Below, one piece after another: positions 16,162 to 59,100 of a stretch of DNA of 64,000 nucleotides (position 1 is its first letter; the number at the start of each line of letters is the position of its first letter). A model generated the notes under the pieces. The model was not told where the DNA came from, did no database searches, and saw only the letters and a list, made by a program, of their open reading frames with translations. The DNA is from Paracyclopina nana (taxonomy: Eukaryota > Arthropoda > Copepoda > Cyclopoida > Cyclopettidae): positions 2,750,501 through 2,814,500 of the forward strand of contig JAGUCH010000007.1 in the NCBI GenBank assembly GCA_019096065.1, written 5' to 3'. Position numbers and translations under genes: made by a program.

Positions 16162-17790
16162 TTAAGGGCCACTGACTGGCTCCCTTGAAGAATCCATTCA
16201 GTAGACCCGAGAGCTTTCCGAAAATGTTATGGGCCATTTGGAAGGTCTACCCCTAGGTAGTAACTGTACCAAAGGGTTTTGCCCTCGGGCCCCTGGGAGG
16301 GGAGATATGGGCCCTCAAAGTTTGGGGAAATTCTTATGTAGTAAAACTTTGGACCCCTCTCACTGCCATATGAATCAACTTTTATCTACCCATTTTTTGT
16401 GCATTGTTAGGCCCCCTATGGGTGTCTCAGAGAATGGACTAAAAGTTGTTGTCCTTCATGCCCACTGTGCTCTAGCGGCTGAAATGTGTTTTTTAGGGGG
16501 TAACTTTGGAGCAAAATTGAGCAACCTTCCCCCGGTGGAATTTTTTTCTTTTTTTGCACAGAGTCAGCCAAAGATAAGTACTTTCAAATAAAAAAATAAA
16601 AAAAATACACTTTTTTGTTTGAGGGCAGATATTGTCTGTCAAAGTTAGCCCATTTTGGCCCTAATAACTTTGTTAAACAGACTTTGAATATAAGAGCTAA
16701 AAATGAAATTTTATTATAATTATAGGGACAAATGAACAATATTTATTTCTGTCATTTTTTATTTTGGCGGCGTTTTGGGGCACTTCCTTAATAAATAATT
16801 TTTAGTTTTTTGAAAATATTGAGTAAATAGTCATTAAGTTTTGATTTCATTAAATGAACATGCAAAAAATGAACTGAAATTGAAATTTTATTATAAATAT
16901 GGTATGTGATGAGCAACTTTTATTTTTGTCATTATATTATTGAACCAATTGTTAGGGTAGTTTTACAGTAAATGCATCATAGTTTGCTTAATTTGTACGA
17001 TTTAAGTTGATCACATCAAATTATGGCATAAGCAAAAGTTGTTCATCATACCCCATATTTATAATAAAATTTAATTTTCAGCTCAGGTATTTGCACTGTA
17101 TCCCTAAAAAATAAGGTTTTACAATTTGCTCAATATTTTCAAAAAACTGAAAATTGTTTATTAAGGAAGTGCCCCAAAACGCCGCCAAAATAAAAAATGA
17201 CAGAAATAAATATTGTTCATTTGTCCCTATAATTATAATAAAATTTCATTTTTAGCTCTTATATTCAAAGTCTGTTTAACAAAGTTATTAGGGCCAAAAT
17301 GGGCTAACTTTGACAGACAATATCTGCCCTCAAACAAAAAAGTGTATTTTTTTTATTTTTTTATTTGAAAGTACTTATCTTTGGCTGACTCTGTGCAAAA
17401 AAAGAAAAAAATTCCACCGGGGGAAGGTTGCTCAATTTTGCTCCAAAGTTACCCCCTAAAAAACACATTTCAGCCGCTAGAGCACAGTGGGCATGAAGGA
17501 CAACAACTTTTAGTCCATTCTCTGAGACACCCATAGGGGGCCTAACAATGCACAAAAAATGGGTAGATAAAAGTTGATTCATATGGCAGTGAGAGGGGTC
17601 CAAAGTTTTACTACATAAGAATTTCCCCAAACTTTGAGGGCCCATATCTCCCCTCCCAGGGGCCCGAGGGCAAAACCCTTTGGTACAGTTACTACCTAGG
17701 GGTAGACCTTCCAAATGGCCCATAACATTTTCGGAAAGCTCTCGGGTCTACTGAATGGATTCTTCAAGGGAGCCAGTCAGTGGCCCTTAA
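16162..17790. mobile_element. TTAA-bounded 1.63 kb palindromic element
   Basis: A giant hairpin. The left arm begins TTAAGGGCCACTGACTGG and the right arm ends CCAGTCAGTGGCCCTTAA. The arms run about 760 nt each around a loop of about 110 nt near 16.92-17.03 kb. The outer 600 nt look essentially identical: a 120-codon frame at 16229-16591 on one strand reappears with the same translation at 17361-17723 on the other. Inner arm parts are more diverged. TTAA at both ends is the target duplication of piggyBac-type transposons, so a non-autonomous piggyBac-like fold-back is the best guess. The shared frame is simply part of the arm, not a recognisable gene. Confidence 0.8.
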
Positions 17791-25676: not shown

Positions 25677-26824
25677 TTAAGTCGACAGATTTGAACAATC
25701 CAGGGGATCGCGGTAAATAGATTTCTGCTGCTGCTGCTGATTGATGATGCTCTTGAGGAAAAGTCGCATGTCGAGGAGGTCGCGGAGGTCTTTTTGTCCG
25801 CACACGTAGCCCCAGCCGTACTTGTCTCCCATGAACGAGGCCATGACCTCGATGCTCTTGACGAGGGCCTCGGCGTTTGCGGCTGCGGCGACCGCATCGC
25901 TGCGCTTGCTGCTCATGTCTGCATTACGGCCTCGACCGCCGCGGAGGCCGCGAACCTTGAGATTGTCCCAGCTTCTAGGGTCGGAGGCCTCGATGGTGTC
26001 TCTAAAGTTCATGCTGAACCGTTTCGGCCTGGCGCGGTAGGAGGACCAGCCGTTGGGATCGGAGCTGTCGAGCGTGTCCAAGTAGTTCATGGAGAACCTT
26101 TTCGCCTTGCTCGTCTGCCTCAACCGGTTGTACCAGCTGGTGGGATCCGCGTTGTCCAGGGTGTCCAGGAAGTTCATCGAGAACCGCTTGCCCCTGCCGT
26201 TGATGAACCTGCTTCCCCCCGTCGCCCTGATCTTGGAGTACCATCCCTTGGGATCGGCCGCGTCCAGAGTGTCCAGGTAGTTCATGGAGAACCGCTTCTC
26301 CGTCGGCCTCGAAAGCCGGCTGTTCCAGCTTGAGGGGTGAGTCGCGTCCAGCGTGTCCAAGTAGTTCATGCTGAACCTCTTGATGTATGCATCTTGTGGC
26401 TCATGATCAGCAGCGAATGGAGCTCTCGCCGCAGCAAACTTGCTCACCTTTATGGCAAAAAAGAGGTAATGCTTCAAAGGGCGCTCGTCCATATCTTGTT
26501 AGAAAACTTTTACGCAACTCTACCGCTCAATCACGCGGAAAACTACGTGCAAAAGTTACATGCACGGCCGTAATTCAGGGGACCCTCGGAGAAATGACCC
26601 ATAATTTACGGAAACGGCAAGGTAAAAGCTGCGCCAGCGTCGAGGAAAAAGCCACGCATTAGCGCCTAGCCTCGGTAATTACGAGTGAGCTTTATTTTTT
26701 CACACGCTGAATTGCGGCAAATTTTTGCCAAAGCATGATTTTTTACCTCCTCGTCTGCATTTTGGTGCGCGAAGCCCAACGAAAAAACACACAAAGCCAC
26801 TAAAATCCTCGTGACATGGATCAT
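25677..26824 (-). CDS. Putative secreted multi-peptide precursor (unassigned neuropeptide)
   Basis: Two exons in phase 0: 26824-26747 and 26447-25677, about 282 aa. Exon 1 encodes a signal peptide (MIHVTRILVALCVFSLGFA, likely cut before HQ). Exon 2 carries five repeats, each directly after a dibasic KR: FSMNYLDTLD, FSMNYLDTLD, FSMNFLDTLD, FSMNYLDTLD and the diverged FSMNFRDTIE, at about residues 51, 79, 115, 144 and 170. Each continues x-x-[DH]P-x-x-W at fixed spacing before the next basic site. No Gly precedes the KR sites, so amidation is not predicted. After the repeats a C-terminal part of about 80 residues has two Cys (YVCGQKDL, PLDCSN) and a Gln run. Layout is that of a neuropeptide prohormone; the repeat matches no family I know (not orcokinin, NPLP1 or FMRFa). 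The exon 2 acceptor (CCATAAAG) is weak; an alternative a few codons upstream is in frame. Confidence 0.8.
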
Positions 26825-30439: not shown

Positions 30440-33400
30440 TTAGTCGCTTTTTCCACTAAAATGAGGGAATCGTACGAGCCTCAGTTTGCTGCCATAGCTA
30501 CAGACAATCGCATCATCTAAATGATTCATGATCTTGACGACTTGTGACGAGTCAGGATGGCCAATTTTGACAATTTTTACAGGGTCAGGAAGCCTCACAT
30601 CCCACACCACCAGGCTATTTTCTCTCCCAGTTATTAACAAATTGTGGGTCAGCATCACCAAATCGGAACAATATGGACCACCACTCTACACGAAAGAAAA
30701 AAATCGCACATTATCGTTGAACATCAGACTGCTTTTGTAAAGGCTTAGTGCTTCTGCAAATCTATAATAAGATGTCAAGCTGAGCAAACCGAGTTTTTTA
30801 CAAAAATGTTGCATAAATATTTCATTTGCGTGTCTCCCTTGACAGTAGCATGATGCGAAAAAAGTTGTTCGTAATGCGTACCAGGTAGATGCTGTTAATG
30901 AGATGGCCTTGCAGCCTTTCCCAGACGCACAGCCTTTCGTCACTTCCCATGCTAATTATGTAGTTTGATGAGTAGGCCAAGTTCAGCAAGGCACCATCAT
31001 GTGCTTGGATGCTGTAGACACAAGCTCCCGTCAAAAGGTCCCATGTGCACATAATTCCATCTTGAGAGCCTGAACAGGCACTGGATGAGTCCTCCTTGTC
31101 AATAAAGGCCGACGTCACTGGCCCACAATGCCCATGTAGGGTATAGACAGCGAGGTAGTCATCCAGCCGGAATACCCTTAATGTGTGATCCTGTGAAGTT
31201 CCAAGAAATCAGATTTTAATGTACCAACGCGAAACTACGTTATCCACTTTTAAAACTAGAAAACTGATTTCACGTTGTAGGCCTCGCACGCATGCCTATT
31301 ATAAGAGCGGAGCACGGTGAAAACATGATGACACTTACGTGGGATCCAGTGAGAATTCTTCCTCCCTGGCAATCGAGGCATGTTAAGGGCTGAGGATGAG
31401 CTCTGGCTGAAAACAGCTTTTCAAGCCTAATATCATCATCGGGGGAAAATTTCAGCAAACTTGGCAAGGCTTCATTCTCGCTTATCGATACATTGCTTCC
31501 TGTTCGCACGTGGTCTGAAAAGACGATAATTCCATCAAAAAGCCATCACCTGAGTGAAATTCGCTATAGGGACAATCCATTAAAAACAACATTGGTCCTG
31601 TTCCTACGACTTTTTATCCAAAGCAGCTAGCTAGAAGTCAAGGCAACGCCTTGGATTGTTTGAGCGGAGTCAGCAAATTTAAAGTACTCACAAAAATTCG
31701 CTAAATTGCACCAAATTGACAAAACTCGTGCTACTATGAAGTGAGAATTGATTGCGGATTGAGATATGCTTGCATTATTTGGTGCACCAAATGTATGCGA
31801 TGGTGTTTTTAGAACCAAACAAAGCTCTTCTAATAGATTATCTAAAAAGCACAATGGGAGCTGCTATTCACAATTACATACAGAATATAAAAAAGTTTTT
31901 TAAAAAGGTTGAGTGCTTTCAGCTGTGAAATGACCGTTCACTTTTTCCATTGGGTTGCGCGCTTCAAGCTCTAAGAATTACATCCAGCTTAATGAGAAAT
32001 ACATCGTACTCTTATGAAAAATGGAACGAGCAGACATTGCATAAATAAAATAATTTTTCCAACCCGTTTCCATAACGGATATTACCAATGAGCACCGCTA
32101 AGCACACAATGGATGTATACTACCGCAAAATTGAGCGAAAGCCTTTAAAAGCCAACGTACATCTTCGTGTAGGCATGGAAGTTAATGGCGTTGAGTTTGC
32201 TCTCTGAAATTGGTTTGCAGGTGAGGATTTAACCTCGAAAAACTCAATGTGGCCTGACAGCCTTGCCACAATTAGTTTGAGGCCGCTCACTTTGATGTGA
32301 GTCACACCGATTCCATTCCCGTCATCGTGCAATCCCTATGAAGTACAAGATTTTTTAACCTTAAAAATATTAAAAATTGCACTACGATGCGTACCTTTAG
32401 CTGCCCTGAAATTGCATCCCAGATTTCGAGGCGACCCGAGGCACACCCTAGGATGACGAGGCCGTCCTCACACTCCATGCACCACACGGAGGTTGAAATG
32501 GGCACTGTGTCATCTAGGGCCTTTTTTGGAGTGAGAGCGCTAAACTTAGTAAAGTTATAAGGCTCATGGCTCGTCTCAATTTGACTTAGAGAGGTAAAGT
32601 TGCTATTGATTGCCTTGGAGTAGCTGGCGTTTTCTTTTCTAGCCACATTTTCAGCTAGCTCATCCCCTGATGGCGAAAAGTACCTGAAAACAAGAATGAG
32701 ATCATCAGAGGAAGAAAAGAAGGAGCTGGAATCAGTTTTGTGCGCTCAAGGGCAACAGCCGACTCCGATCTGAACGGTTCTAGTAAATGTTCAGAGGGAG
32801 TTTACGCTCAAAATTGCGTCGTGCATAGAGCACGCGGTGAAAATGTTCTCAAAGGGGACTAGAGACCAGATCATTATCAGCTGATGCTGCTGACCTAAAT
32901 ATGGCTTGTAGGTTCCAGAGAAATTCTACTACCTGAGCCATGAGGAGTTTGACGACAGAAATCCTGTTGATCTTTTTTTCCTGCATCTCTCACGTGCTAG
33001 CAACAGAGATCATCTACCCGGCCATTCCACCCGACTTCTTAACCCGAAGGTCGTCATCGTCGAACGGAAACGAGTCGGAATCCGGAGGGGGGTGTGACTG
33101 TGACATCGTGGAAATTGTGACCACAAATCAAGCTGTGCTGAGGAAGCATGGGGAATTGCTCGGAAGGTACACACAAATCCTGGACAAAGACGGCCTTCAC
33201 AATGGCCGGCCCGGATATGAGCACTTTTCGGGCAAATTCTTCCTCTACTACAACACCGCCTCGCAAGGATTCTGGGCAATAGGCGAGCGGATGGGCAGTG
33301 AAGTGGTGAGGCTGGAGAATCAGGGAGACAGATTCTGCCCTTACTACCTCAAGTCCTTGTGGAGATACGCGGACGGGGACTTGAATGCACTCATCTACGA

Positions 33401-36400
33401 CTCCAGTTTACGAGCATTGTGCACAAGTGACCCATGTTCAGTGGCACACTGTGGGCATCAAGTAAGTCTTGCAAAAAGTGCACGCGTCGAAGCGCTAATT
33501 CCCACTTTACCAGGCGAAATGCGTACTCTTGGATCCAGAGGCCGGATCCAACTCAACAGATCCAATAGCAACGTGCGAATGCAGGGAAGGCTTCTCTGGA
33601 GATCCGTACGCTCGATGCTTGCCTAAAATCGACAATGATCCTTGCGGCTGCGACAGGCTCATTTTCAGCACTCAAAATCCACTGGCCAAGGAGAAGCACG
33701 AGAACAGCTACGGTGAGTACTTTTTGTTCGACACCTTCGAGGGGGCCCCAGTGTACCAGCATTTCGCGGGCATCGAGTACTTGTACAAACGCGACAATCA
33801 TTGGCTGGTTTCCGACAAAATTGGCCTCCACGAGGCCGGCATGCAGAATCAGGTAAGGTGAAACCAAACGAGGCGGCGAAATCCTATCATAACATACGAA
33901 TGTTCAAGGGAGACGAGGAGATGAAGTGCCCCTATTTCTTCCGCACGCATTGGGAATATGCGGATGTGGAGCAGCCTGGATGGCAGTGGGTGTACGACTA
34001 CTCAGCCAAGCTGGTCTGTCCAAATGATCCGTGCTCGATGAGCAAGTGTGGATTTCACGCAGAATGCCAAAATGACGGGGGTCAGTCCATGTGCGCATGC
34101 AAGCCCGGCTTTGAAGGCAATCCATATACTCGGTGCTACCCAGAAGCGCCAGTCAACTGTGATTGCTTGACCCTGGAATTAGCCAGTTCTGGTCCTTCAG
34201 CGCTTGCCCAGTCCGACAAAATGGGCACTTATCACCTTTTCGGATACGTCAATCAAAAGCCAGCCTATCAACACGAAAGTGGCCTCGATTACCTCTATTA
34301 TGCTGAGGGGGATGCGTGGGTGATTGGGGCCACTTTTGGAGGCTCCAGGGTTGGTGTAGTCAACTTTGACCAACAGCTTTGCCCATACGCAATCAAAAGC
34401 GTTTGGAGGCACTCAGTTGGGGGGAAGCTGGAAAAGGATCCGGGAATCGTTCTGACCTGCACCGATCCAAGGCCTCTGCTAAAGACCACCATGAGACTGA
34501 AGCCTCCTCATCAATCAGACCTTGAGGCTGCACCCTCCATTCAAGAGACTTTTGTGCAACCCGAGAACAAAATCGATGCAATTCAGGATAAAATTGATGT
34601 TGTCACTCCTCAGCCTCCGCGAGAGGCTGTGCCAGCATCAAATAATGGCTCAAACGTGAATGGCCTTGACACAACCATCTGCGATTGCCCTTCAGTCATC
34701 ATCACCAGTTCCAATGAAGCCACCATTGCGAAGCATGGAGCCCAATTGGGTACATACAACTTGATTCAAGTGCAAGCTGGAAGGCCGACTTATAAGCATG
34801 AGGTCAACGAGCAGTACTTGTACTACCATCCCTACTCAGGAGGAAACTGGCTAATCAACACAGAAATCGGCCTCTTGTATGGCGGCATCCAAAACTCGAA
34901 AGATGTTCCAGTCTGTCCGTACATGATTAATACTCAGTGGCAGTATGGCGACAGTGACCTCGGAGGCTGGGTCTATGATTCAACGCTTAAAGTAATTTGC
35001 CCCTCGGATCCTTGCTCAGTTTTACAGTGTGGATTTCGCGCAGAGTGCGCAATGATAAATGGACCAATACGATGCGAATGTCGCGAGGGATTTACAGGTG
35101 ATCCAAAAACCAGGTAACTAGCAATTTCCGAGCAAAGATCAAGTGTATGCTGATGAGCTCATTACTCCTCCGTACATCGTACGCCGTAATTGCTCTTTCA
35201 GCTATGAATTTGAAAAGACTTCGGATATGAAAAATGGCATTTTTAAAGTTCGCAAAATTAGTAGTACTGCTTAAGCACATACTATACTGGCCAGTTCTCA
35301 TAAAAAAGTCCCTAATGTAAAAATGGGCGGAGGGCGTGGCAGGGGAAAAAGTTCCGATTTCATAGTTTTAGACCCTAGTGAACTGATTACTATGTGTGAA
35401 AAACTACGTAAACAAATGAGTGCACTCACTGTAGAAAAAGTATCAATTAGGGAAAAATGGGCTGGGGGAAACAAATCAAAAATATTGATATTTGGCCATA
35501 TATGGCAAAAAGTTCCAATCTGCGAGATTTAGTACTACAAAGATTACCATAGAGAGCTGAGTGCACTGATTACTATAAATACCCCTTTCAATTTCAAAGT
35601 GCTTGCAGCATAGGAAACCGTAAACGGTACCATATTTGTCCTACCGGCGAGCTCATAAGATTTCAGACTGCTGTTCGCTGCTTGCGCAGCGCAGTCTGAA
35701 TAAGCGAAATGCCTCATTTTCTTGATTATTTTTCGCAAGGAATATTTTTCACCAGCTCAAGTAGAGTATAAGATTCAAATAGACCAATTATTTTTAAATC
35801 TTACTATATTAAGAGTGCTGTATTTCTTGAAATTTCATCTTTTCCTAAATTCCAGGCTGGCCTTTGGGCTGGCTTACGGGCAAGCTAGCACTAATTAAAA
35901 GTGTACCCAAAAAAAAAGATTTTGCATCATCTTTTACCCAAAATGACGCATCAAATTAAATTGGCTTTTTAATAATAGAAAGCTGGCTTTTTTTACTTTT
36001 TTATATAGTTCACATCCAGTAGCGTTGAACGTGTCAACTACACTTGCGCGCTGATGATGTCAAGCCGTCTGAACTGAATGCCATCTGGTGCAGTCAGCTT
36101 GACTTCGGGTTCCTATAAACCTTAATTTTAAACCAGCTTATATGACCAATAGGAACCCGAAGTCAAGCTGACTGCACTAGATGGCACCGAGTTCAGACGG
36201 TGAGCTTATGAGCTCGCTGGTAGGTTAAATATGGTATCGTGTACGGTTCCCTATATGCAATAGGTGAGCATTAAGACAAATTCAACCTTCGCTTCGGTAA
36301 GCAAAATTGAGTTCCTACAACAAATGATACAAAATATGAAAATAGCTTCGGCTTTTAAAACAATTTTTCAATTTTAAGAAAAGGACTACTTTAAGAATAG

Positions 36401-39400
36401 TAAAAATTCTGAAGTGTCGATGGAGTAATCCGTGTTAATTGGCTCACTTTTACCAAGGTTCAACCAACGTAGCTAAAAAATACATTCGTGATGGTAAAGA
36501 TGGGCTTGAAAACTGGTCCATTGTTTCAGGTGCTACCCAGAGGAAATTCCAGCGTCGTGTTCATGCAAACATGTCGTGCTCTCATCCCCTGGACCTTCAC
36601 AGGAACACCAAAGAGACAAAATGGGCGAATACTTCCTCTGGGGCTACTACAACGATCGCCCCGTGTATCAGCATGTCAGTGGCCTTGATTTTCTCTACTA
36701 CCACAAAAATAACGTGTGGGGCGTTGGCCCCAAAATAGGCGGCAACTCTGCCGGCCTCTTGAACTTCGGACTTGACGCCTGCCCATACAAACTCAACACT
36801 CCATGGGAGTTTGGCACGAAGATGAAAAACAAAAAAAGGCAAATGGATCCCCAACTCAGCTTGATTTGCCTCGACGAAGTGACTGGGAGCGTGGTAACTG
36901 AGCAACCTTCAACTTCATCACCCTCCTTACCTACGACCACAATGCCAACAATCACTAGGGTGCATGGTGAGAAGCTGATGCCATGTGGGGAGAGCTCAGC
37001 AGAGAATCCTTATCCATGGCAAGCCCAGATCAAAGTTTTGACCAATGGAGTTGGTCGGCACATTTGCTCAGGAGTCATCTTGACTGAAAAGCACGTGCTC
37101 ACGTCAGCCTCTTGCCTTGTCAATAACCCCATAAAAAACTACATGATTGTAGTGGGCCAAAATGCTCTCGATGAGCTAGACGAGTGGGAGGAAGAGTTTT
37201 CAGCCCAGAGCATCTATACTCATGACTTCTTCGACGAAACCTCCGGCAGCCATGATTTGGCCATCGTCAAGTTGAAGCAGAGGCGAGGACACTACATAAA
37301 CTTTGAACACCCTCAAATCCAGCCAATTTGTTTGCCAACATCAGCAGCAGGGCAAGAGAGCCGTGATGGCTCGTGTGAAATATCTGGATGGGGCTCTTGG
37401 TCAGCGGCTGATCAGAAGTTATCCTTGATGGGCCAGAGTGTCAACCTGGATCCAGTTTGCACATTAGAGCATCATTGTGTCAATAACCCAAGCGCAGCGA
37501 ACCAAAAAGACTTTACTTTCGACGACGGCATGCCACTCACGTGTAAGCCAATGTCGAAACCAATGTGGTATCTGAGAGGCCTTCGAGCAAAAGCTCTTGA
37601 TCCTTGCGATCAAGGATGTCCCACAATGAGATTTCTAGATATAAGTGCCTACTTGTTATGGATAAACGCGCGTCTAGCTTTGTAGGCATAAAAGAGTATT
37701 CTACTGTTTCCTACCTTGATCTGTTCATTTGGGAGATGACGTCTCCGGTGTAGGAGTCCCACGTGCTGATGGTACCACCGAGACATAGACTGATGACAAT
37801 ATTGCCATCACAAGCTAAGCACTCAACTTCATGCTCGTGTCCGTCCAGTTCAATGGGGACGGCCTCTTGAATAATCTGAGTGTAGAAATCACTAAAACAC
37901 TTGTGCTCCGGACCATTCCAAGAAGACCTCCACTCAGCATAGTTTCTTGAGCAGACACATCGGTAGAGGATCACGACCAAGTAGAGGATAAACAGGAAGG
38001 AAGGGAAGCAGAGCACAAAGGCTAGGAACAGTTCACTGGGAGACGTTGGCACAAACGGGCTGAGTTCAGGTCCAGCGGCCTCCTCGTCGTATGACTCCTG
38101 ATCGCCAGCCACTTCACTATCATCTCCGGCCATTTCTGATGCACTTGCAGCTTTTTCAGCGGCTTCTTTGGGATGTCGAAGCATTTTGGCACTTTCAGTT
38201 CCAATGATCATGGATAGATGAATCGGAGGTAGCAGAGTGATGTACTGGCCTTGAAGGCTGATATTGTACAATGAGAACAACATGGGCCAATGGGTCAAGG
38301 GCAGCCTGGACCACACCTCCTGATTTGGCCTTTGGATGGGCAAGAGTTTCCTGAGAGAGTTCAATTTCACCTTCAACTCGTCCACGTTATTAATAGCTTC
38401 TTCGGAGGGTTTTACAAAGTCTGACAAATGGTTGAAATTATCACTGAGGGCAGCCATCATGGGGCCTTCATCACGGATAGTATCCTTGATGGTTTGACTG
38501 TCATGGCTATGGTTGTCTGGCAAGAACAATTCATGCTGAGTTTTGATCAGATTATCCAACAGCTTGGATTGGTAGATAAAAATGGAGATCCAACCAACCA
38601 TGCAGAGCAAAAACATTCTCTGAATAATTCGGTTTTTGGCAAAAAAGTTGATGAGCCGAACCCGCTTGGCCGGTACTTGCGGAATGGCATTGCAGTTCGG
38701 AGCCACAACACTGGTTTGATCATTCAATGTTTTCTTGATAAGGCCTGGGCCGTGGAAGGGCTTTTGGAACATCTTGACATTTCTCGAGGGTTTCCTGATC
38801 GAGTCACTCAGCTCCATCTGGCTTATGTCCAATGAGAGGATCGTGATAAAAAAGGTGATCTGCATAAAAAAATCAGCAAAGAGACCCATGATGGCCAAGT
38901 GGCAGAACTCTTGCACAGATGCATCGATTGTACCGAGCAAGAAAATGAACGTCAAAATGGTTATCTCTGCAAACAGGTTCTTGGTGATGTTCCAGCCTTC
39001 TTTGCTAAGTCCCTGGGCAATCCGAATTTTGACGTCCAGATGTGCAGGCGTTGAAATGACACTTTGAGTCACCACCAGTATGTTTTCTAGACTGATAAAA
39101 GCAACTAGGTAGGGCACTAGAGAGATCTTGCTGTTCATGTTTAAGCTGATTCCTGAGAGTCCCAAACTCATGCAGGTTGTGCAAATGACGGTAACTATTG
39201 CACTCACTGCAATGCCCAATTTGCTTTTGACAAATTCGATTCTCTTACATGAGAAGTAGACATAGAGAAACAGCATGAGTATTGTCACCACAAATGGGAC
39301 CCATTCCACGTGGGGCTGCTTCGATGAAGTAAAATTGAGGTGGACGACTTCGTCAGACGTGACATTTCTAGAGTGTTGTATGCTGAACAGAGTCCTCTAA

Positions 39401-40323
39401 ATAAAGAGATCTTTGCATACAAAGCTACCGAAATGAACTGGCATTTTGAGCGATAGCTAAAAAAGGGGGACAAAGAGGGGACTCTGTTCACCATACTGAG
39501 CATTGCGAGAGATCTCATCAACGAGTGGGTAGAGCCTCAACAATTGTTTCTTTAAAGCACTCACGAATGTAGGGTTGTAATTGCTAAAAGCAATGGTCAC
39601 AGCATAGGTAACGACTCTTTGGCGGTTTCTGACCGGATATTTTGTGATGCCAGTGTCACGTTGCCTTAGGCCAAACATCAGATCAGCGAGGCTGCTATGG
39701 CCTTCACGCTGATGTTTCTGGAAGTTGAACACAGTGGAGATCACATTGGGGTCCATTTGGAACGTCCGGGGATCACGTTGCCACAGATTGGCTGGTGACA
39801 AGATGAGACAGCCATAGTCTGGTAAGATATTTGTGGTGACAGCCCAAGATCGGTACTTGTCAGCCACGCCATCCGTCCTTAGGCAAACGTGATCCATGTC
39901 AAGCCCCGTTTCTGGATCACGAAACAAGGACACGTCCTCCAAGTGAAGTTTAAACGCGCTTGCCAATGGCCCGCGAAACGCATCCGTCTTGATGAGTTCA
40001 TCTTTGCGGTAAGGATGCACCATGGCCTTGATGATGATTTGCTGCACAAAGGCCACCGGTGGGCCGGACATCATCCACGGTGGCCTCACGGAAGAGTTCC
40101 CCGTTGGCACTAGTTTCAACTCAGAGTCGACCAACTCGACATGCGACGCTGGCCTTCCTATGTAGATAGGAATAGAGAGCAGAGGCCAACAGGACCAAAT
40201 GACACCAATAACAGCTACGCACAGCACTGGCCTGGGGTGTGAGGCCGACATCAGGCCTATTCGGTAGTACTGCTGGCCTACCCAGTCAGGTACCGATCTT
40301 GAGCGGCTCCTGCTCGGATCCAT
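30440..40323 (-). CDS. SCAP: SREBP cleavage-activating protein (SCAP)
   Basis: Sterol-sensing ER escort that carries SREBP to the Golgi in COPII vesicles. Exons in gene order: 40323-39497, 39382-37715, 32683-32395, 32335-32161, 31514-31339, 31190-30882 and 30685-30440; phases agree throughout and give about 1229 aa (vertebrate SCAP about 1280). Helix 1 and a large luminal loop 1 (LRTDGVADKYRSWAVTTN) are followed by the sterol-sensing domain: YVYFSCKRIEFVKSKLG, SLENILVVTQSVISTP, RIAQGLSKEGWNITKNL. The COPII-binding site MELADL of loop 6 reads MELSDS. The C-terminal half is WD40: CMECEDGLVILGCASGRLEIWD, GGRILTGSHDHTLRVF, CSGSQDGIMCTWD, SDERLCVWE, ENSLVVWDV. The 5.0 kb second intron houses a complete gene on the opposite strand. 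The A/B junction uses GTATGG, chosen by phase. Confidence 0.95.
32940..37685 (+). CDS. Secreted five-module EGF/serine protease homolog, nested in SCAP intron
   Basis: Exons 32940-33461, 33514-33852, 33909-35113 and 36530-37685 give about 1073 aa. A signal peptide (EILLIFFSCISHVLA) leads. Then come five related modules of about 110 residues, each opening with a Cys-rich start (CDCDIV, CGCDRLI, CDCLTLE, CDCPSVI, CSCKHVV). All share a core such as NDRPVYQHVSGLDFLYY and a W...G..GG signature, and end CPY...W.Y. EGF-like units (DPCSxxxCGFxAEC...CxCxxGFxGxPxxRC) follow modules 1, 2 and 4. A Thr/Pro linker precedes a trypsin-like domain (PWQAQIKV...SGVILTEKHVLTSASC) in which catalytic His is Ser and the GDSGGP site reads FDDGMPL; the Asp remains (HDLAIVKL). 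So it is a non-catalytic homolog, as in clip/masquerade-type regulators, probably haemolymph or matrix. The whole gene sits antisense inside SCAP intron 2. Confidence 0.88.
35606..36258. repeat. Nested fold-backs in the protease-homolog intron
   Basis: The outer pair starts ATAGGAAACCGTAAACGGTA near 35609 and ends with a diverged complement (GTGTACGGTTCCCTAT) near 36254; both carry GAGCTCATAAG or its complement. Inside, a tighter hairpin spans about 36063-36203, with arms CAGTCAGCTTGACTTCGGGT and its exact complement. It lies in the 1.4 kb intron 35114-36529. Non-coding, MITE-like. Confidence 0.7.
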
Positions 40324-42140
40324 TGTGCTACGAGAGCATGCTCACGAACAAGACGGAAATTCAAACTGAACAACTGTAGCAAAGATGCGAACGCTTCATC
40401 TTCTTGCCGTTTGACGAAAAATAAATATTGTGCGCGTTTATAAACACGGGATCGGAAACGCAAGTCAGTACGCTGTTGTAATTGAACATCGGTCACAAAA
40501 CAGCATTTTAAGCTCATAAAAGCTGCCATACTCATTGATAAATTTGCGTGATCACTGTTACGCCATGAAAAAGCGAAGAAGAGTCATTAAATCGTTCGTC
40601 TTTGTAAGATAGTGCAACGATATGCCCCTAATTTATTGGACGGACTGGCAATGTAAACAATCTGCGATTCTGCCAGGGTGACCAGATGTGGCTATTTATA
40701 GCCAAACTGGCTATTTTTGACCCACATGTGGCTACGCAAATTTGAATAGCCATAGCCATTCGTGGCTATTTTTGAAAAGTCCGAAAATTTGACATTTTTA
40801 CTTAATGAACACATGAAAATCATCAAAGAAGTAGGGGAAAAATTTGCAATAATGGCTGACTTTTTTTAATCTTTTGCCACCAATAAAAGAAGAAAATCAT
40901 TATTAAATCCTTGGTTTCATCCACAGCAGTCCCAAAAATTTGAACAATTTTTCATAATAACTAATATTGTCTAAAAAATTCCAAAAAATGTGGCTATTTT
41001 TCACCAATTTGTTGCTATTTAGAGCCATTTTTCTGAGGTAGCCAAACGTGGCTGTTTTAGGGGAAAATCTGTCTACAACCCGCTCAAATTTTCTGGTCAT
41101 CCTGGATCATTCTGCGCAAATTAGCAGCGCAGTGTGCATGTCTGTAAGTACTTGAGATTTTCAATTCAAATTTCCTGCAGAGTATGTAACAGGCATTTTT
41201 TCTCACACACACTATCTCGACAACTAGCTAAAATACGAACTTTGCAAGTTTATGTCGATTCATCGATCTCGATTAAGAGTTCACCAAACTTCAAATCAGC
41301 TTTTCCAGACTGCATTCTATGCATTGTGACCAGATCTTTTCTCAGCCTGGTTGACTGGGATGCCTATGGGGAGCAAAAGACAGACAAAATCCAATAGATG
41401 GTGCTGAATTTTTGGTTCTTTGGCGTACGAGTAAGCGTGCGTAGCAATTGCGGCAAAAATAGCGCTTCAAACAAAAAGTAAACAAAAAGTTTTTTAGAGT
41501 TGTAGGCAACAAAATGACTAAGAAAGCTCTCTTTTTGAGCTTGTAACAGTACAATTGATTCAAGGAACATAATGGTACCATTTTGAGCAAGATTCATGAA
41601 AGTCGAGAAATTTTGGATCATGAGTCACATCATATCCAGACCTGAGCATGAAGGATCGAATAAGAAAAAATAGCCTTACTTTTTACAGCTCCACTCTGTG
41701 TGAGTTCAAAACAAACAAGTTCATCTAGTGTGGGTTCAATAAAAAGAGCCAGTTTTTTCACAAATAAGCCATTTCTTGCAATGAATTGAGGAAAAAGTAT
41801 TTTCTGGTAATCATGATGGCCATGCTATAGTTGTTGTACTGGCATGGCAAAAGCTAAGAAAATTGGAAAAAGCCAGCCCAAAAGTAGTGAATTGTCCCTA
41901 ATTTTTAGAAATAGTCCTCAAAAACTTGATAATATCTTTGATTCTAGGGCTTTGAAAATAGGTATATTTAGCATAGGAAATCTTTTAAACTACAAGTAGT
42001 TTAGAGAACCAAGGAGAACCAAAAGATACTGCACCTCTATTCAGAGAACCAGCCAATTTTAATTGCGAGTCCACCTAGGTAAGGCAGTTCTCAGCCCTCC
42101 ATGGTTTCAACTAAAATCCGCTAGCAGAAATATGGTACTT
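40324..42140. other. Intergenic region upstream of SCAP
   Basis: The first few hundred bases should be the SCAP promoter. The rest is AT-rich with a short inverted-repeat element at 40673-41103 (separate entry) and no recognisable gene. Confidence 0.4.
40673..41103. mobile_element. Short TIR element rich in TGGCTATTTTT
   Basis: The ends are CCAGGGTGACCAGA and TCTGGTCATCCTGG, inverted with one mismatch. The body repeats GTGGCTA/TGGCTATTTTT several times and has no coding capacity. Flanks ATTCTGC (left) and ATTCTGC (right, four bases beyond) may be remnants of a target duplication. hAT-like MITE is a guess from the CAGGGTG end. Confidence 0.55.
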
Positions 42141-44069: not shown

Positions 44070-44720
44070 ATGAGATTCGGCCGTCAAAGCAGCCTCACAT
44101 TCATAGACAAGAAGCCTCAGATTCGGCCATCAAAGCAGCCTCATATTCCTAGACAAGAAGCCTCGGATTTGGCCATCAAAGCAGCCTCATATTCCTAGAC
44201 AAGAAGCCTCGGATTCGGCCGTCAAAGCAGCCTCATATTCCTAGACAAGAAGCCTCGGATTCGGCCGTCAAAGCAGCCTCAACATTCACAGTCTGAAAGC
44301 CTCAGATTCGGCCGATAAAAAGCCTTGGAAACGGCCGTCAAAGCAGCCTCAACTTCATATTCAAAAAGCCTCGGATTCGGCCGTTAAAAAGCCTTGGAAA
44401 CGGCTGTCAAAGCAGCCTCAACATTCATAGTCAAAAAGCCTCGGATTCGGGCAAAAATAAAAGCCTCAGATTCGGCCGTCAAAAAGCCTTGGATTCGGCA
44501 GTCTAAAAGCCTCGGATTCGGCCATCAAGTAGCCTCAAAATTCACAGTCAAAAAGCCTTAGATTTGGCTGTCAAAAAGCCTCGGATACGGCCGCCAAAGA
44601 AGCCTCAACATTCACAGTCTGAAAGCCTCGGATTCAGCCGTCAAAAAGCCTCGGATACAGCCGTCAAAGCTGCCTCTATATTCATAGTCAAAAAGCCTCG
44701 GATTCGGCTTTGCGATGATG
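44070..44720 (+). repeat. Tandem array AAGCCTCGGATTCGGCCGTC, left arm
   Basis: About thirty imperfect copies of a 20- to 25-nt unit such as AAGCCTCGGATTCGGCCGTC, alternating with CAGCCTCAACATTCACAGTC. A short outlier sits at 45105-45150. It is the inverse of the array at 47.58-49.33 kb. Confidence 0.9.
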
Positions 44721-45379: not shown

Positions 45380-46845
45380 TTTCTCTAACAGTAACCGAAA
45401 ATCCCAGGTTGGTTGAAATTCCAAGACAAGCTCGACTTAATATTTCGATCTATTTTAAAGTGACCTAAGTCAACTCGCGCTCGCTTGGCTGGACTGCCCA
45501 CTGACTCATCAAAATTCAGCACTCTACTGGCTTCTAGCTGAATACTGAAACTCAATTAGAAGTTAGAATCACCGCCGAATGACGCCATTGAACATTTTTA
45601 ACCAGTGATGTGATGTAAAATTGGAAAACCAAGACTCCCGCACCTTGGAGGAGCGACTCCCACACCCGACAGCGTCTCCCGCACCCGGCAGCGTCTCCCG
45701 CACCAGGCAGCGTCTCCCGCCCCCCGGCAGTGTCCCTCTCCAACACCCGGCAACGTCTTTAACTGCAAATTGAGGCTGCCCAAGACCAAGACAGCAATTT
45801 GAGGCTCCCGCTCCCGGCAGCGTCTCCCGGACCCGGCAGCGTCTTCCGCCCCTGGCAGCGTCTCCCGCACCCGGCAGCGTCTCCCGCACCCGGCAGCGTC
45901 TTCCGCCCCTGGCAGCGTCTCCCGCACCCGGCAGCGTCTCCCGCACCTTGCAGCGTCTCCCGCACTCGGCAGCGTCTCCCGCTCCCGGCAGCGTCTCCCG
46001 GACCCGGCAGCGTCTTCCGCCCCTGGCAGCGTCTCCCGCACCCGGCAGCGTCTCCCGCACCTTGCAGCGTCTCCCGCACTCGGCAGCGTCTCCCGCTCCC
46101 GGCAGCGTCTCCCGGACCCGGCAGCGTCTTCCGCCCCTGGCAGCGTCTCCCGCACCCGGCAGTGTCTTCCGCCCCTGGCAGCGTCTCACGCACCCTGCAG
46201 CGACTTCCGCCCCTGGCAGCGTCTCCCGCACCCGGCAGCGTCTCCCGCACCTGGCAGCGTCTCCCGCACCCGGCAGCGTCTCCCGCTCCCGGCAGTGTCT
46301 CCCGGACCCGGCAACGTCTTCCGCCCCTGGCAGCGTCTCCCGCACCCGGCAGTGTCTTCCGCCCCTGGCAGCGTCTCCCGCACCCGGCAGCGTCTTTATA
46401 TTCAAATTGAGGCTGCTCAAGACCAAGACGGCAATTTGAAGCTCCTGCACCCAGCAGCGTCTCCCGCCCCCGGCAGCGTCTCCACACCCGGCAGTGTCTC
46501 CACACCCAGCGGTGTCTCCACACCCGGCAGCATCTTTAACTGCAAATTGAGGCTGCCCAAGAACAAGACGGCAATTTGAGGCTCCCGCCCCCGGCTGTGT
46601 CTCCCGCACCCGGCAGCGTCTCCCGCACTTGGCAGCGTCTCCCGCACATTGTGGCTACTCAAGACTATGAATTCGGTGGGAAAAAAATTCGCCTGGTGAT
46701 TTTTTTTCCCGGGAAAAAAATTCCCCTGGTTAATTTTTTTCCCAATGTGTTTGTTTACATTTTGTCTTGGTAGAGAAATAAACTGAGAACTATTTGGAAA
46801 TTGAAACCTAACCAGGGATTTTCGGTTACCGGTAGAGAAATAAAG
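45380..46845. mobile_element. Nested element carrying the GC-rich minisatellite
   Basis: GTAACCGAAAATCCCAGGTT near 45391 and its diverged complement (AACCAGGGATTTTCGGTTAC) near 46810 form inverted ends. Between them lies the 19-nt minisatellite. The element is itself inside the 6.7 kb composite. Confidence 0.6.
45650..46655. repeat. 19-nt GC-rich minisatellite
   Basis: About 50 copies of CAGCGTCTCCCGCACCCGG with variants (CTTCCGCCCCTGG, CTCCCGGACCCGG). The array is interrupted at 45.76, 46.40 and 46.53 kb by copies of a spacer containing CAAATTGAGGCTGC. As 19 is not a multiple of 3 and the unit has no stop, all six frames stay open for long stretches. The 57-nt (3 x 19) cycle gives a 19-residue protein period. 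This is not a gene. Confidence 0.92.
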
Positions 46846-47550: not shown

Positions 47551-47584
47551 GAGCCCCCAATTCCCCACATTTCCGGGCAAAATC

Positions 47585-49335
47585 CGAAGCTTTTTTACTG
47601 TGAATGTTGAGGCTATTTGATGGCAGAATCCGAGGCTATTTGATGGCAGAATCCGAGGCTTTTTGATGGCAAAATCCGAGGCTTTTTGACTGTGAATTTT
47701 GAGGCTGCTTTGACGGCCGAATCCGAGGCTGCGTTGACGGCAGAATCCGAGGCTTATTGACTGTGAATTTTGAGGCTACTTGATGGCCGAATCCGAGGCT
47801 TTTTTACTGCCGAATCCGAGGCTTTTTGACTGAATGTTGAGGCTGCTTTGACGGCCGAATCCGGTGCTTTTTGACGGCCGAATCCAAGGCTTTTTGACTG
47901 TGAATGTTGAGGCTGCGTTGACGGCTGAATCCGAGGCTGCGTTAACGGCAGAATCCGAGGCTTTTTGATAGCCGAATCTGAGGCTTATTGACTATGAATT
48001 TTGAGGCTACTTGTTGGCCGAATCCGAGGCTTTTTGACTGCCAAATCCGAGGCTTTTTGACTGAATGTTGAGGCTGCTTTGACGGCCGAATCCAGGGCTT
48101 TTTGACGGCCGATTCCGAGGCTTTTTGACTGTGAATGTTGAGGCTGCTTTGACGGCCGAATCCGAGGCCTTTTGATAGCCGAATCCGAGGCCTTTTGATA
48201 GCCGAATCCGAGGCTTTTAGACTGTGAATGTTGAGGCTGCTTTGACGGCCGAATCTGGGGCTTTTTGACGGCCGAATCCGAGGCTGATTTGACGGCCGAA
48301 TCCGAGGAATTTTGACTGAATGTTGAGGCTGCTTTGACGGCCGAATCCGGTGCTTTTTGACGGCCGAATCCAAGGCTTTTTGACTGTGAATGTTGAGGCT
48401 GCTTTGACGGCTGAATCCGAGGCTGCGTTGACGGCAGAATCCGAGGCTTTTTGATAGCCGAATCTGAGGCTTATTGACTATGAATTTTGAGGCTCCTTTT
48501 TGGCCGAATCCGAGGCTTTTTGACTGCCAAATCCGAGGCTTTTTGACTGAATGTTGAGGCTGCTTTGACGGCCGAATCCAGGGCTTTTTGACGGCCGATT
48601 CCGAGGCTTTTTGACTGTGAATGTTGAGGCTGCTTTGACGGCCGAATCCGAGGCCTTTTGATAGCCGAATCCGAGGCCTTTTGATAGCCGAATCCGAGGC
48701 TTTTAGACTGTGAATGTTGAGGCTGCTTTGACGGCCGAATCTGGGGCTTTTTGACGGCCGAATCCGAGGCTTTTTGACTGAATGTTGAGGCTGCTTTGAC
48801 GGCCGAATCCGGTGCTTTTTGACGGCCGAATCCAAGGCTTTTTGACTGTGAATGTTGAGGCTGCTTTGACGGCTGAATCCGAGGCTGCGTTGACGGCAGA
48901 ATCCGAGGCTTTTTGATAGCCGAATCTGAGGCTTATTGACTATGAATTTTGAGGCTACTTGTTGGCCGAATCCGAGGCTTTTTGACTGCCAAATCCGAGG
49001 CTTTTTGACTGAATGTTGAGGCTGCTTTGACGGCCGAATCCAGGGCTTTTTGACGGCCGATTCCGAGGCTTTTTGACTGTGAATGTTGAGGCTGCTTTGA
49101 CGGCCGAATCCGAGGCCTTTTGATAGCCGAATCCGAGGCCTTTTGATAGCCGAATCCGAGGCTTTTAGACTGTGAATGTTGAGGCTGCTTTGACGGCCGA
49201 ATCTGGGGCTTTTTGACGGCCGAATCCGAGGCTGATTTGACGGCCGAATCCGAGGAATTTTGACTGCGAGTGTTGAGGCTGCTTTGACGGCCGAATTCGA
49301 GGCTTTTTCACTAAGAATGTTGAGGCTTGTTTCAT
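47585..49335 (-). repeat. Tandem array GACGGCCGAATCCGAGGCTT, right arm
   Basis: About 80 copies of a 20- to 25-nt unit such as GACGGCCGAATCCGAGGCTT, alternating with GACTGTGAATGTTGAGGCTG. They are organised in a higher-order period of roughly 500 nt: blocks starting near 47.82, 48.31 and 48.78 kb are nearly the same. It is the complement of the left-arm array. A long open frame on the minus strand here is a by-product. Confidence 0.9.
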
Positions 49336-53197: not shown

Positions 53198-56100
53198 CTA
53201 GGTAACTTGCTTTTCCACATGGCTCAGCATTAGCTTGAGTTTATCAAATGAGGGCCGAATTTCAGGGTTCTCTTCCCAACATGCCATCATGACTTGAGTA
53301 TACAATACATTGGAGCATTTATCTGGCTTTCTTAGCCTGGTGCCTTCAAGCAGTTTCTTTATCCAGTTGTTCATGTCCATGGCCAACCTCTCTTGGCCTT
53401 GGTCAGTTCTGAAGTAGTCCTCACAGCCTTCAAGGTATGGCAGCTCTCCAAATGAAAACATCTCCCAAAGGACAACACCAAAGCTCCACACATCTGAGGG
53501 AGTATGAAAAATCATCTGTCGCAACGACTCAATGGCCATCCACTTAACAGGAATATTGGATCTCGAAGTCATTGTGTAGTAGTCCTTTTCTCGAGGTTGC
53601 CTGGCAAGGCCAAAGTCTGATATTTTCACCTGCTCTTCGTTGGCAACCAAAATGTTCCTGGCTGCCAAGTCCCGATGAATGATTTTCTTTCTGCTCAAGT
53701 AGATCATGCCTTCGATGATGTTGTCAGCATAGAGGAATAACTGAACGAGTTTGATGGTATCCTTTTTGGTCTTAAGGTACATGTCCAAGGAGCCGTGCTC
53801 CAGGTATTCCATTGCAAATGCCATTGTGGTGATGCCTTCCTCTTCCATCCTCTTCACGCCTCTGATCCTGACTATGTTGTCATGATTGAACCCTTTCATC
53901 AAATTCAACTCGCGTTCGATCTCCTTTTCAGACTCTGGATCATTGATGTCTCTCAGCCTTTTGATAGCCACTTGCTCCCAATCACCATTGGATCTGGCTA
54001 AGTAACCCAGGTAGACAATGCCAAAATTGCCTTCACCTAGAATCTTGTTGTTGAAGGTAATTTGAGCCCCATCATCGATATCGTAAATGCAAGGCATCGA
54101 TGCATACGAGCTGGACAGTGAGGATATGGATGTCTGCAAGGTGAACTCAGACCTATACGAGTTGACCACGCTGCCCTCCATACTGGAGCTGGATCTGCTG
54201 AGTAGGTTCTGCGTGGAATCATGCCAAATTCCACCACCACCTTGACCAAACAACATTCTCGAGTCACGGAATTTGTGCATCCAGTTGGTAAAAGTTGGCA
54301 CCAAAGTGTTGTGTTGATGGGGCAGAGTGCCAAAGCTCTGCAATTGGTCTTCATCTTCGTCATCACTATGCAACCTTGAGGGCTTTCTCGAAGGCAAGGG
54401 CACATCAGTGGGCGAGTTGGAGCCATTGTTATCCGAGTTGATGATGGTATCCCCAGAGCCAGCGGTGGTTTGCAGAGTCTTCACTGATCCCGACGGTGAC
54501 AGCTGCTGCTCGTTCATTGTTACATAAATATGCACTTTTTGAGCATTTACCACCTTGTACAGGAACTGGTGAAGGGACTTGAGAATTGTCTGAGGCGAAT
54601 CCCGTTCCTCGGGGACAGGCCTCCAGCAGCCCAAGATGATGCGGTAAATCTTGTCGAATGGCCCAGAGAGGCTGCTTGGCCTGCTTAAACGATGGCCTTT
54701 GATGTACTGGTCCTTGGCCAAAGTGAGATCGAGTTTGGGTGCTTCGCCATAGGAGAAGAGCTGCCACAACGTTGTGGCAAAGGCCCAGACGTCACCCTTG
54801 GTGGTGCATTTGCTAGGTGTAGGGCAAGAGTCCATCAGCAGCTCTGTGCTCAGCCAGTGGACTTCATCTGGATTGGTGTAATCGGGTAGACCAGGGTCAC
54901 CAAGTTTGACTTTAAACGCAGACCCAACAACGTGGTGAGATACAAAGACATTGCACAATCTGGGGTGAAGGATCATGGCATTAGTAAATGTATACTTTAA
55001 GAGCGTACGTCAATCCGAAAAGATTATTTTTTGATTAAGTACTTCTTGCGGATGCCTATACCAGGAACTACAAACAGAACGCACGCAAAACTACAAATAA
55101 CGGACGCGCACATGGATCTACAAAACTTTTTTATTAAACCATCCGCATATGGACCTACACTGAACCAAGCGCACCCGGGGGCGCGTACTTTGTCCTACAG
55201 TCAACCGATCGCACATAAAACTACAAAACAGTGCGCACGTCAGACTACAAAGATTTTTAGCCTAGAATGTAAACAACCCCAACCGCACATGAATCTACAT
55301 ACAACTATTCGCACATGAACTACAAATTACGGAAACGCACACTAAACTACAATCAAATCCATTATTGAAATTGATAACTGAAACCACAGTTCTAACTTTT
55401 GTCGTTGTTCACTATCATAGTTTATTAAGTAATTATAAGAATCTGCTAACTTCTGTTGTAATCTCTAATTATTCTAAATAGGTCAATAATATGGGTAAAA
55501 TTCTGCTTTTTCAATCTATTAGTACATTTTGGACTATTTGGTTTATTTGGACTTTTAGGCTTTTTTTGGACTGTTTGGTCTTTTCCCTATTTTTAGTTTT
55601 TTAATCTTTTAGGACTTTTTGGAATATTTGGACTTTTTGGAATATTTGGACTTTTTGGAATAATTGTGTGTGCCAAATTGTGGGAATTGTGTGCCTTTTA
55701 TGAGGTCCCTTTTTTCAAAAGTGCATTTAGTCAAATGTAGTTTCCTGTGCAAATCATCTGTGTTCATTTTGCTAACAGCTTTTTATGTTGGTTCATGTGC
55801 GTATCTGCTAAATGTAGCTTGAGTGCGCTTGGTTCAGTGTAGGTCCATATGCGGTTGGTTTAGTAAAAAAAAGTTTTGTAGATCCATGTGCGCATCCGTT
55901 ATTTGTAGTTTTGCGTGCGTTCTGTTTGTAGTTCCTGGTATAGGCATCCGCGCACCCAAGCTACATTTAGCAGATATGCACATGAACCTACATAAAAAGC
56001 TGTTGGCACAATGAACACAGATGATTCGCACATGAAACTACATTTGACTAAACGCACGGACTATTTGGACTTTTTTGACTAATTGGACTATTTGGACTTT

Positions 56101-59100
56101 TTTGACTAGTTGGACTATTTGGACTTTTTTGACTAATTGGACTTTTTGGTCTATTGGCTTTTCTGCCATCTCAAACTTTTAGGACTTTTTGGACTTAAAG
56201 AACAATTTGGACTTTTTTGACTATTTCGACTTTTCAAATGTAAAGGACTATTTGGACTTTTTTTGACTAATAGGACTTTTTGGTCTATTGACTTTTCTGC
56301 CATCTCAAACTTTTAGGACTTATTGGACTATATGGACCTATGAACAATTTTGACTTTTTTTTTTTTGACTATTTAGACTTTTCAAATGTAAAGGACTTTT
56401 TGGGCCAATTGTACTATTCGGAATTTTTTGACAAATTGGGCTTTTTGGTTCATTGACTGTTCTTCTACCTTTTCAAACTTAGAGGACTTTTTTTGACTAT
56501 TTATACTTTTCAAATGTACAGGAGTATTTAGACTATTTGGACTTTTTGGACTATTCTGACTTTTTTGACTAATTGGGCTTTTTGGTCTATTGACTTTTCT
56601 TCTGCCTTTTCAAACTTTGAGGACTTTTTGGACTACTTGGACTTTTCTGCTTCCAGCTATGGAATCTAGAGACTCAGCAGAACAACTTTTCACTTCATTG
56701 CAAAATTGTGAGTATACAAGGTATCTCAGAAACTAGTTTAGTAATAAAAAGTGTTCAGCTTTGTCTCTAGATTCCAGCTAATGAGTAGCGGAAGTAAATG
56801 CTGAGATATCAATTTTGCAATAAAGTGAAAAGTTTTTCTGCTGAGTCTCTAAATTCCATAGCTGAAACCTAATAATTTGAAAAGGCAGAAAAGTCAATAG
56901 ACCAAAAAGTCCAATTAGTCCAAATATTCAAAAAGTCCTTGAAGATTGAAAAGGCAGAAAAGTCCAACTGGTTCAAAAAATCCAAATATTCAAAAAAGTC
57001 CATTAAGTTTGAGAAGGCAAAATAGTCAAAAGACCAAAAAGTCCTACTAGTTTGAAAAGGTAGAAAAGTCAATAGATCGACAGCATAATTATTCTGTAAA
57101 TCCACTCAATTTTAGCTAAAAATAGTCAAAATTTCTCGGACTTACAATTGATAACCATCTTTAAAAAGTTTTTAAAACTATTTAAGGATAGTATTACTCT
57201 TGTGGATTCTCGTGCGCTTGGTTCATTGTTTATTGATGTGCGTTCATTCTGTGCTCTTTGATTTGCTTGTAGTTTAGTGTGCGTTTCCGTCATTTGTAGT
57301 TCATGTGCGCTTAGTTGTATGTAGATTCATGTGCGATTGGGGTTGTTTACATTCTGGGCCAAAAATCTACCTTATGTTGGAGTGGACAATGTTGTGATCC
57401 TCCAAATACCAGAGACCTTTAGCCAGGCCTGTGGCCGCCTCCAGAAGCTCCTCTTTGGTCACATCTCGATTTCGTTGCAGGTAATGATCGCAAGGACCCA
57501 TCGGCAAGTACTCCATCACAAGCGCCATAGGATTGCCATGGATGGCGAGCGTGGCTCCGTGAACCTTAATCAAGGTTGGATCATTCCACATCAGCGTGTT
57601 GTAGCACATTTGCATGAACGGCGCCAGCTGCCTCTCATCGCTGTGCTTCAACTGTTTGATGGCTACAATTTCCCTTTCCTTGGCATTTTTGGACCATTTG
57701 CCTTTCCAAACGTTGGTAAACCTGCCCTTGAGCTTGACATTTTCGTACTTGCATAGCGCCGTCAAAGGAATGAAGTATTTATGCTCGTTAGTCATCTCCG
57801 ACCGATAACGACCCACGATGTCACCTTCAATGGCCGAAATCGACCTGCAAGTGAGCAGACTCCTCGCTCTGTCAAACTCTGATGGGTGAAGGCAAATTTT
57901 CAGCTGGAGCAAAGCTGCCACATCTTTGACTAGGCTTCCAATATCGAGGTAGCATTCTTCTATGTGGCCATTACCCCTCAAGTATTGCTTGTTAAGTGAG
58001 AACGAGCCAGTCTCCTTGGATTGGATAATATGCAGCTCTCTTATTTCGGAGTCGACTATGTAGTGCAGAAAATACGTGAAGTGGTCCGTGCAACTTTTTC
58101 GTATCAAGTAGGTGCCGTTTTGTTGCCTTGCCGGATTGGCTTTGAACTTCTCCCTCACAAATTGGTCATCGACAGGCCCATGCACGTGAGATTTTAGCAG
58201 AGCTGACAACGAAGGGTAATCGATGTCTGAGCACAAGCAGAAAATCCACTTCTCGCATAGCCTATAGTAGGAGCTCAAAGTAGTGAGCATGGACATCCCG
58301 ACAGCTACATTTTTCACAGTCACATACAACGGTATGCCGTTTTTCCTCGCAATTTCAACGCATAGGAAATCCTTCTCTTCGTCCTTGTTGGTAGAGATGT
58401 TGCAGATCTCCTCAACGTTGCACAACGGTATGTCCTTTTCCTTGGGGTCAGACGATGCTATTGCCAGGAAGGGTTCAATTTCCTGATACGGCTCAAAAGT
58501 GTTTCTGAAGGGTGGTACAATCTTCAGCTTGACCAGGTCTGCTGCAGTCTGGCCCATGGTCTTGAGCTCGACATTTTCAATGATCTCTTCGTAATACTTG
58601 GGGAAATGGGCCTCGACCAAGTTGAGGAACTCCATTTTTCGCTGGTTCAAGGTGGCGCCGGTATCTTTTTCGTAAGCATCAATTTGCTTGGCAGCCGTTT
58701 GCTTCAACTTGGCCAGCCCGATCATCATCTCCGCGGCATTGGCAAATGTGCCTTTAGGAACGTAATCGTCGAAATTCTTCATGACTTCTTTTCGGTCCCT
58801 GCGCTCAGCCATGATGTCAATGACAATATTAAGACTGACAAGTCTAACTATGGTAGCGAGCAATGCGATGCGTTTCTTCTTGGCCATGGCAACCTCTGGA
58901 TCGGCATTGTTGCCGCTGGAGATGACGGGGATGTACCATTTGGGAGATTGGGAGGACGCCTCCTTGATGATCTCCTGCGAGGTGGCCTTGTGAACGAGAC
59001 TGCTGTCAAAGTCATGCCGCACTTGACTGTAGTAATAGCGAAAAGTGGCCTCGTCCGTTTCGTACAGCCTCGCGGGAAAAGGAGGCTTGAACCGGACTCT

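Follow-up and report, generated by a model that had tools for sequence, protein, structure and literature searches.

Introduction

Neuropeptides of the pedal peptide/orcokinin (PP/OK) family are commonly encoded by multi-copy precursors and are commonly non-amidated (PMC6586643, PMC5814872), and orcokinin has been reported also from nematodes, tardigrades and priapulids (PMC11817372). Echinoderm members follow a pattern of Phe near the N-terminus, Asp-[PT]-Leu and a late aromatic residue, Phe or Tyr (PMC9793003), and both FGNSNMDPLVHSLIGG (PMC6586643) and FGKGGAYDPLSAGFTD (PMC5656890) have Phe1 and an Asp-X-Leu core, as do the repeats described below. Neuropeptide F/NPY peptides have a C-terminal RXRF-amide (PMC4990251). 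Here, a gene of related layout is described from a 64,000-nucleotide stretch of Paracyclopina nana DNA (contig JAGUCH010000007.1, positions 2,750,501 to 2,814,500), referred to throughout as the window. The gene lies on the minus strand (26824..25677), has two exons and encodes 282 residues, with the same coordinates as in an original prediction made from the sequence. Judged from its sequence, it is with good probability a multi-copy precursor of neuropeptides or peptide hormones, whose products, by analogy with precursors of this kind, most likely act on a receptor.

Repeat organisation and proposed processing

The predicted precursor consists of a signal peptide, a spacer, five repeats, each directly after Lys-Arg (KR), and a tail with two cysteines (Table 1), largely as the original prediction had modelled it. 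There are six dibasic sites in the precursor. Every one of them is KR and stands immediately before a repeat or the tail, so that five related peptides are bounded by dibasic sites. Eight of the first 17 columns of the aligned repeats (1-4, 7, 8, 14 and 17) are identical in all five copies, while columns 5, 6, 9, 10, 13, 16 and 19 have two states. The core FSMN[YF]LDTLD, previously called invariant, is exact in four copies but reads FSMNFRDTIE in copy 5; the fixed x-x-[DH]P-x-x-W extension proposed along with it is found in every copy. Two patterns drawn from the core had no match in the window outside these five places, and a looser [KR][KR]F pattern found one further, unrelated match (57163, plus strand).

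Comparison of the ten pairs of copies gave a divergence at silent sites (pS) of 0.51 and at amino acid-changing sites (pN) of 0.15 over the 10-residue core (pN/pS 0.29), and of 0.57 and 0.21 over 17 residues (pN/pS 0.36). These ratios are rough, being based on few sites, and changes between AGC and TCN serine codons inflate pN. The repeat peptide is under purifying selection, judged among the copies of one gene. Since silent sites are well diverged and pN/pS is low, the copies are old and have been maintained by selection; they are not a recent duplication, and it is the protein sequence that has been kept. Taken together, the signal peptide, the KR at each border, the related copies and this constraint favour a multi-copy peptide precursor that is secreted and processed, and the prohormone architecture originally proposed is thereby supported.

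Table 1. Features of the precursor gene (window positions; on the minus strand each feature starts at its higher coordinate)
Feature	Position	Strand	Details
Exon 1 (coding part)	26747..26824	-	ATG, hydrophobic core, small residues before the supposed cut (by eye), donor GAG/GTAAAA
Exon 1 content	26747..26824	-	Putative signal peptide MIHVTRILVALCVFSLGFA and first spacer residues HQNADEE
Intron	26448..26746	-	299 bp, GT-AG, phase 0; acceptor after CTCTTTTTTGCCATAAAG
Exon 2	25677..26447	-	Spacer, five repeats, tail, stop
Repeat peptide 1	26298..26375	-	26 residues between KR sites
Repeat peptide 2	26190..26291	-	34 residues; C-terminal Gly before KR (NGRG-KR)
Repeat peptide 3	26103..26183	-	27 residues
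Repeat peptide 4	26025..26096	-	24 residues
Repeat peptide 5	25908..26018	-	37 residues; divergent core FSMNFRDTIE
C-terminal tail	25680..25901	-	74 residues, two cysteines, modelled helical

In the proposed pathway, the signal peptide would direct the protein into the secretory pathway, where prohormone convertases would cleave after each of the six KR sites. A carboxypeptidase would then strip the basic residues, a step that is established for prohormones. Five related peptides starting with Phe, mostly non-amidated, would thus be set free, perhaps after trimming at the first basic residue following the Trp to 19-20 residues, and would signal as neuropeptides or hormones through a receptor, probably one of the G protein-coupled type. 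Several near-identical copies would raise the yield of one signal. Amidation glycines, said earlier to be lacking, are indeed missing from four copies, but copy 2 could be amidated through its terminal glycine.

The length of the mature peptides can be read in two ways. The 24-34 residues originally given do not cover the KR-to-KR products, which reach 37 in copy 5. Beyond residue 17-19 the copies become less alike. The first basic residue to follow Trp17 comes shortly after this point, at 20 in copies 1-3 and at 21 in copies 4-5, and past it the copies vary in sequence and length. This suggests a shorter product: the mature peptides may have 19-20 residues, released by monobasic cleavage at that residue, the remainder serving as linker. 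The average masses calculated for copies 1-5 are 2186.3, 2194.4, 2251.4, 2299.4 and 2401.6 Da in this shorter form and 3026.3, 3766.2, 3192.5, 2780.0 and 4200.6 Da from KR to KR, copy 2 being lighter by about 58 Da if its terminal Gly is converted to an amide. The earlier argument that the conserved Trp implies long products is weakened accordingly. In a model of copy 2 built from the five aligned copies (mean predicted local distance difference test score, pLDDT, 66; modest confidence), helices at peptide residues 5-12 and 14-25 are broken at Asp-Pro; the second helix extends beyond a 19-20-residue product and counts against the shortening.

Secretion and KR cleavage alone fall short of proving signalling, and the gene might instead encode secreted peptides that are cut at KR but have no signalling role, for example antimicrobial peptides or other effectors. 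Room for this is left by copies 2 and 5, which are slightly cationic (about +1.8) in their KR-to-KR forms. The conserved 19-20-residue blocks, however, are acidic (net charge -2.15 to -3.24), unlike most antimicrobial peptides, which speaks against an antimicrobial role, and the effector reading is considered improbable.

Gene model and coding evidence

The exon 2 reading frame is well supported. The stop-free run that contains it spans 273 residues, and none of 300 Markov sequences modelled on the 5 kb around the gene, read in six frames each, held a run of at least that length. Its codon log-odds, under a model of eight neighbouring coding exons, is 0.327 per codon, compared with 0.114-0.438 for those exons when each was left out in turn and -0.460 to 0.048 for exon 2 read in its five other frames. 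The codon usage of exon 2 agrees with that of the neighbouring genes and is coding-like in its own frame alone.

The acceptor at 26447 is in phase and is preceded by a pyrimidine tract. Exon 1 has a signal-peptide-like start, with a hydrophobic 10-residue core of mean 3.06, and by sequence rules, given the predicted exon model, the protein begins with an N-terminal signal peptide. In scans for similar exons a loose threshold of 2.2 was relied on, as a stricter one of 3.0 had been set after the value of 3.06 was seen. At the loose threshold, a signal-like ATG exon with an in-phase donor within 400 nucleotides of the acceptor occurred in 1% of 300 Markov sequences. In the actual 3 kb there are two signal-like ATG exons, exon 1 itself and one at 27774. 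The latter lies on the minus strand upstream of the precursor; its ATG (MKISMLLQVTIIFILS) is likewise signal-peptide-like and has a GT in phase, and it is possibly an alternative first exon or a chance occurrence.

The frame of exon 2 also runs on upstream without a stop as far as an ATG at 26492, which gives an unspliced reading in which the gene would encode a repetitive structural, cuticular or cytoplasmic protein and the signal peptide would be due to chance. The stretch that follows this ATG is poorly hydrophobic (1.41, versus 3.06 for exon 1), and there is no evident structural reason for KR to stand exactly at each of six borders; such a protein is very improbable.

Several observations weigh against the gene being a peptide precursor. 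The codon log-odds of exon 1 is 0.039, although its 26 codons are too few for a codon test, and a signal-like ATG exon anywhere in 3 kb arose in 17% of the 300 Markov sequences at the loose threshold, which weakens exon 1. The joining of the two exons by splicing is likely, but as a prediction it has to be counted here. The 677 nucleotides after the stop contain neither AATAAA nor ATTAAA but only the variant AATATA (25480), and the 1,148 nucleotides before the ATG contain no TATA-box match. Searches for relatives returned 5 pattern stretches in viral_contigs and 39 in genome_contigs, none confirmed; as neither collection is meant for animals, this carries little weight. On the side of the precursor reading, by contrast, the repeats have no confident fold in a model of all of exon 2 (mean pLDDT 42), staying below 50 throughout. 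Neither this low-confidence model nor the weak helical moment (0.24-0.42) bears on receptor action. The tail in the same model is helical at modest confidence, with block means of 53-71 over exon 2 residues 181-240 and 42-46 at the end.

Family searches

The repeat was originally described as not assignable, and this agrees with the searches. Pfam gave three sub-threshold matches only (E 0.14, 0.14 and 0.59), none above chance, NCBIfam gave no match and the PDB a single chance match (E 0.51). The longer motif strings were absent from the literature searched, which leaves out most subscription journals, so that their absence is no proof of novelty; six shorter strings matched literature that is unrelated, judged by titles and the beginnings of abstracts. 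A survey of tardigrade precursors was reportedly published by Koziol in 2018, and the present gene could be among its candidates or those of another survey.

The first 17 columns of the five aligned copies were tested for similarity to 40 groups of published peptides, with 500 column permutations as the null. Values below 0.05 were obtained for Bugula vasopressin-like peptides (0.008), neuropeptide F (0.016), companion peptides of the Bombyx orcokinin-A precursor (0.022), proctolin (0.026), Bombyx orcokinin B (0.036) and CCHamide (0.040), none of which is significant after 40 comparisons. The eight PP/OK groups ranged singly from 0.036 to 0.749 and gave p 0.11 when summed. Because these summed groups lack significant similarity, the gene is not filed under PP/OK, which appears from the sequence to be the best family lead, short of membership.

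A strongly diverged PP/OK precursor, homologous to orcokinin, would be a sub-case of the multi-copy precursor. The multi-copy layout, the prevalence of non-amidation and the wide distribution outlined above are in keeping with it, as are Phe1, Asp-Thr-Leu/Ile and Trp17 in all five repeats. The echinoderm pattern fits the repeats, though copy 5 has Ile for Leu and the late aromatic is Trp instead of Phe or Tyr, and occurs in 0.3% of 200,000 permutations of copy 2, a test chosen after the fit had been noticed. The NFDEIDR start of crustacean and Bombyx orcokinin-A peptides, for which excerpts of PMC4696782 and PMC11817372 supplied the comparison sequences, occurs in none of the copies. Together with the non-significant similarity, these differences make such an origin rather doubtful; if it holds, the gene shows how far a bilaterian family that keeps its Asp-X-Leu core can drift. 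It is also possible, and is put forward tentatively, that the multi-copy precursor belongs to a new peptide-hormone family with its own receptor, marked by an FSMN-x-x-DT start, an Asp-Pro hinge between helices, a conserved Trp and mostly non-amidated ends. An orphan neuropeptide points to a further receptor and to physiology that is closed to study until the ligand is named.

Genomic surroundings

The precursor gene is flanked by two plus-strand genes, one for a kinase (ending at 25074) and one for a PP2C-type phosphatase (coding from near 27973). The genes of the window are animal genes at the level of Pfam domains; by finer names, we take the neighbours to be a CLK-type kinase, a PPM1H-like phosphatase, SCAP, a JAK-type kinase and a ceramide synthase. 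The observed/expected CpG ratio is 0.86, and no Rfam family exceeded its gathering score anywhere in the window.

Further features were noted elsewhere in the window. A sterol-sensing domain gene (Pfam) occupies 30825-40341 on the minus strand and is SCAP by the name of a sub-threshold propeller match. Opposite to it, plus-strand open reading frames (ORFs) at 32937-37682 end in a trypsin domain and have, by eye, repeated domains with LYY/YLYY and CP motifs; they seem to form a nested gene. Two 128-residue ORFs in opposite orientation (16205-16588, plus; 17364-17747, minus) apparently have the same translation, and would form a long inverted repeat, perhaps a mobile element. In the tandem arrays at 44073-44709, 45652-46647 and 47581-49308, units of 18-23 bp lie within longer periods. 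Two large minus-strand ORFs at 53201-59370, with SH2-like and tandem kinase domains, presumably represent the JAK-type kinase.

Comparison with known peptide systems

Local likeness to FYHLYGQNFLDIDSPVSSFD, a peptide of the Bombyx orcokinin-A precursor, is found around NFLD...P..S (p 0.022), but this is a precursor-derived companion peptide of one species and not a family, and the match is non-significant after 40 comparisons. Neuropeptide F/NPY resembles the repeats locally (YLDTLD here, YLDALN there; p 0.016), and a helix is modelled over the stretch. The present gene differs in its multi-copy layout, none of the five copies has the RXRF-amide end, and this match too is non-significant after 40 comparisons.

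The present gene is unlike PP/OK types in its FSMN start and Asp-Pro-x-x-Trp end, in lacking NFDEIDR and in showing no significant similarity to them. Nevertheless, PP/OK-type precursors share the Asp-X-Leu core and, in echinoderms, also Phe at or near the N-terminus, and those of starfish are mostly without amidation, as is the present gene. The starfish ArPPLNP1, sea cucumber AjPPLNP2 and crayfish orcokinin precursors all resemble the present gene in layout: a signal peptide comes first, and after it several related peptides with dibasic sites at their borders.
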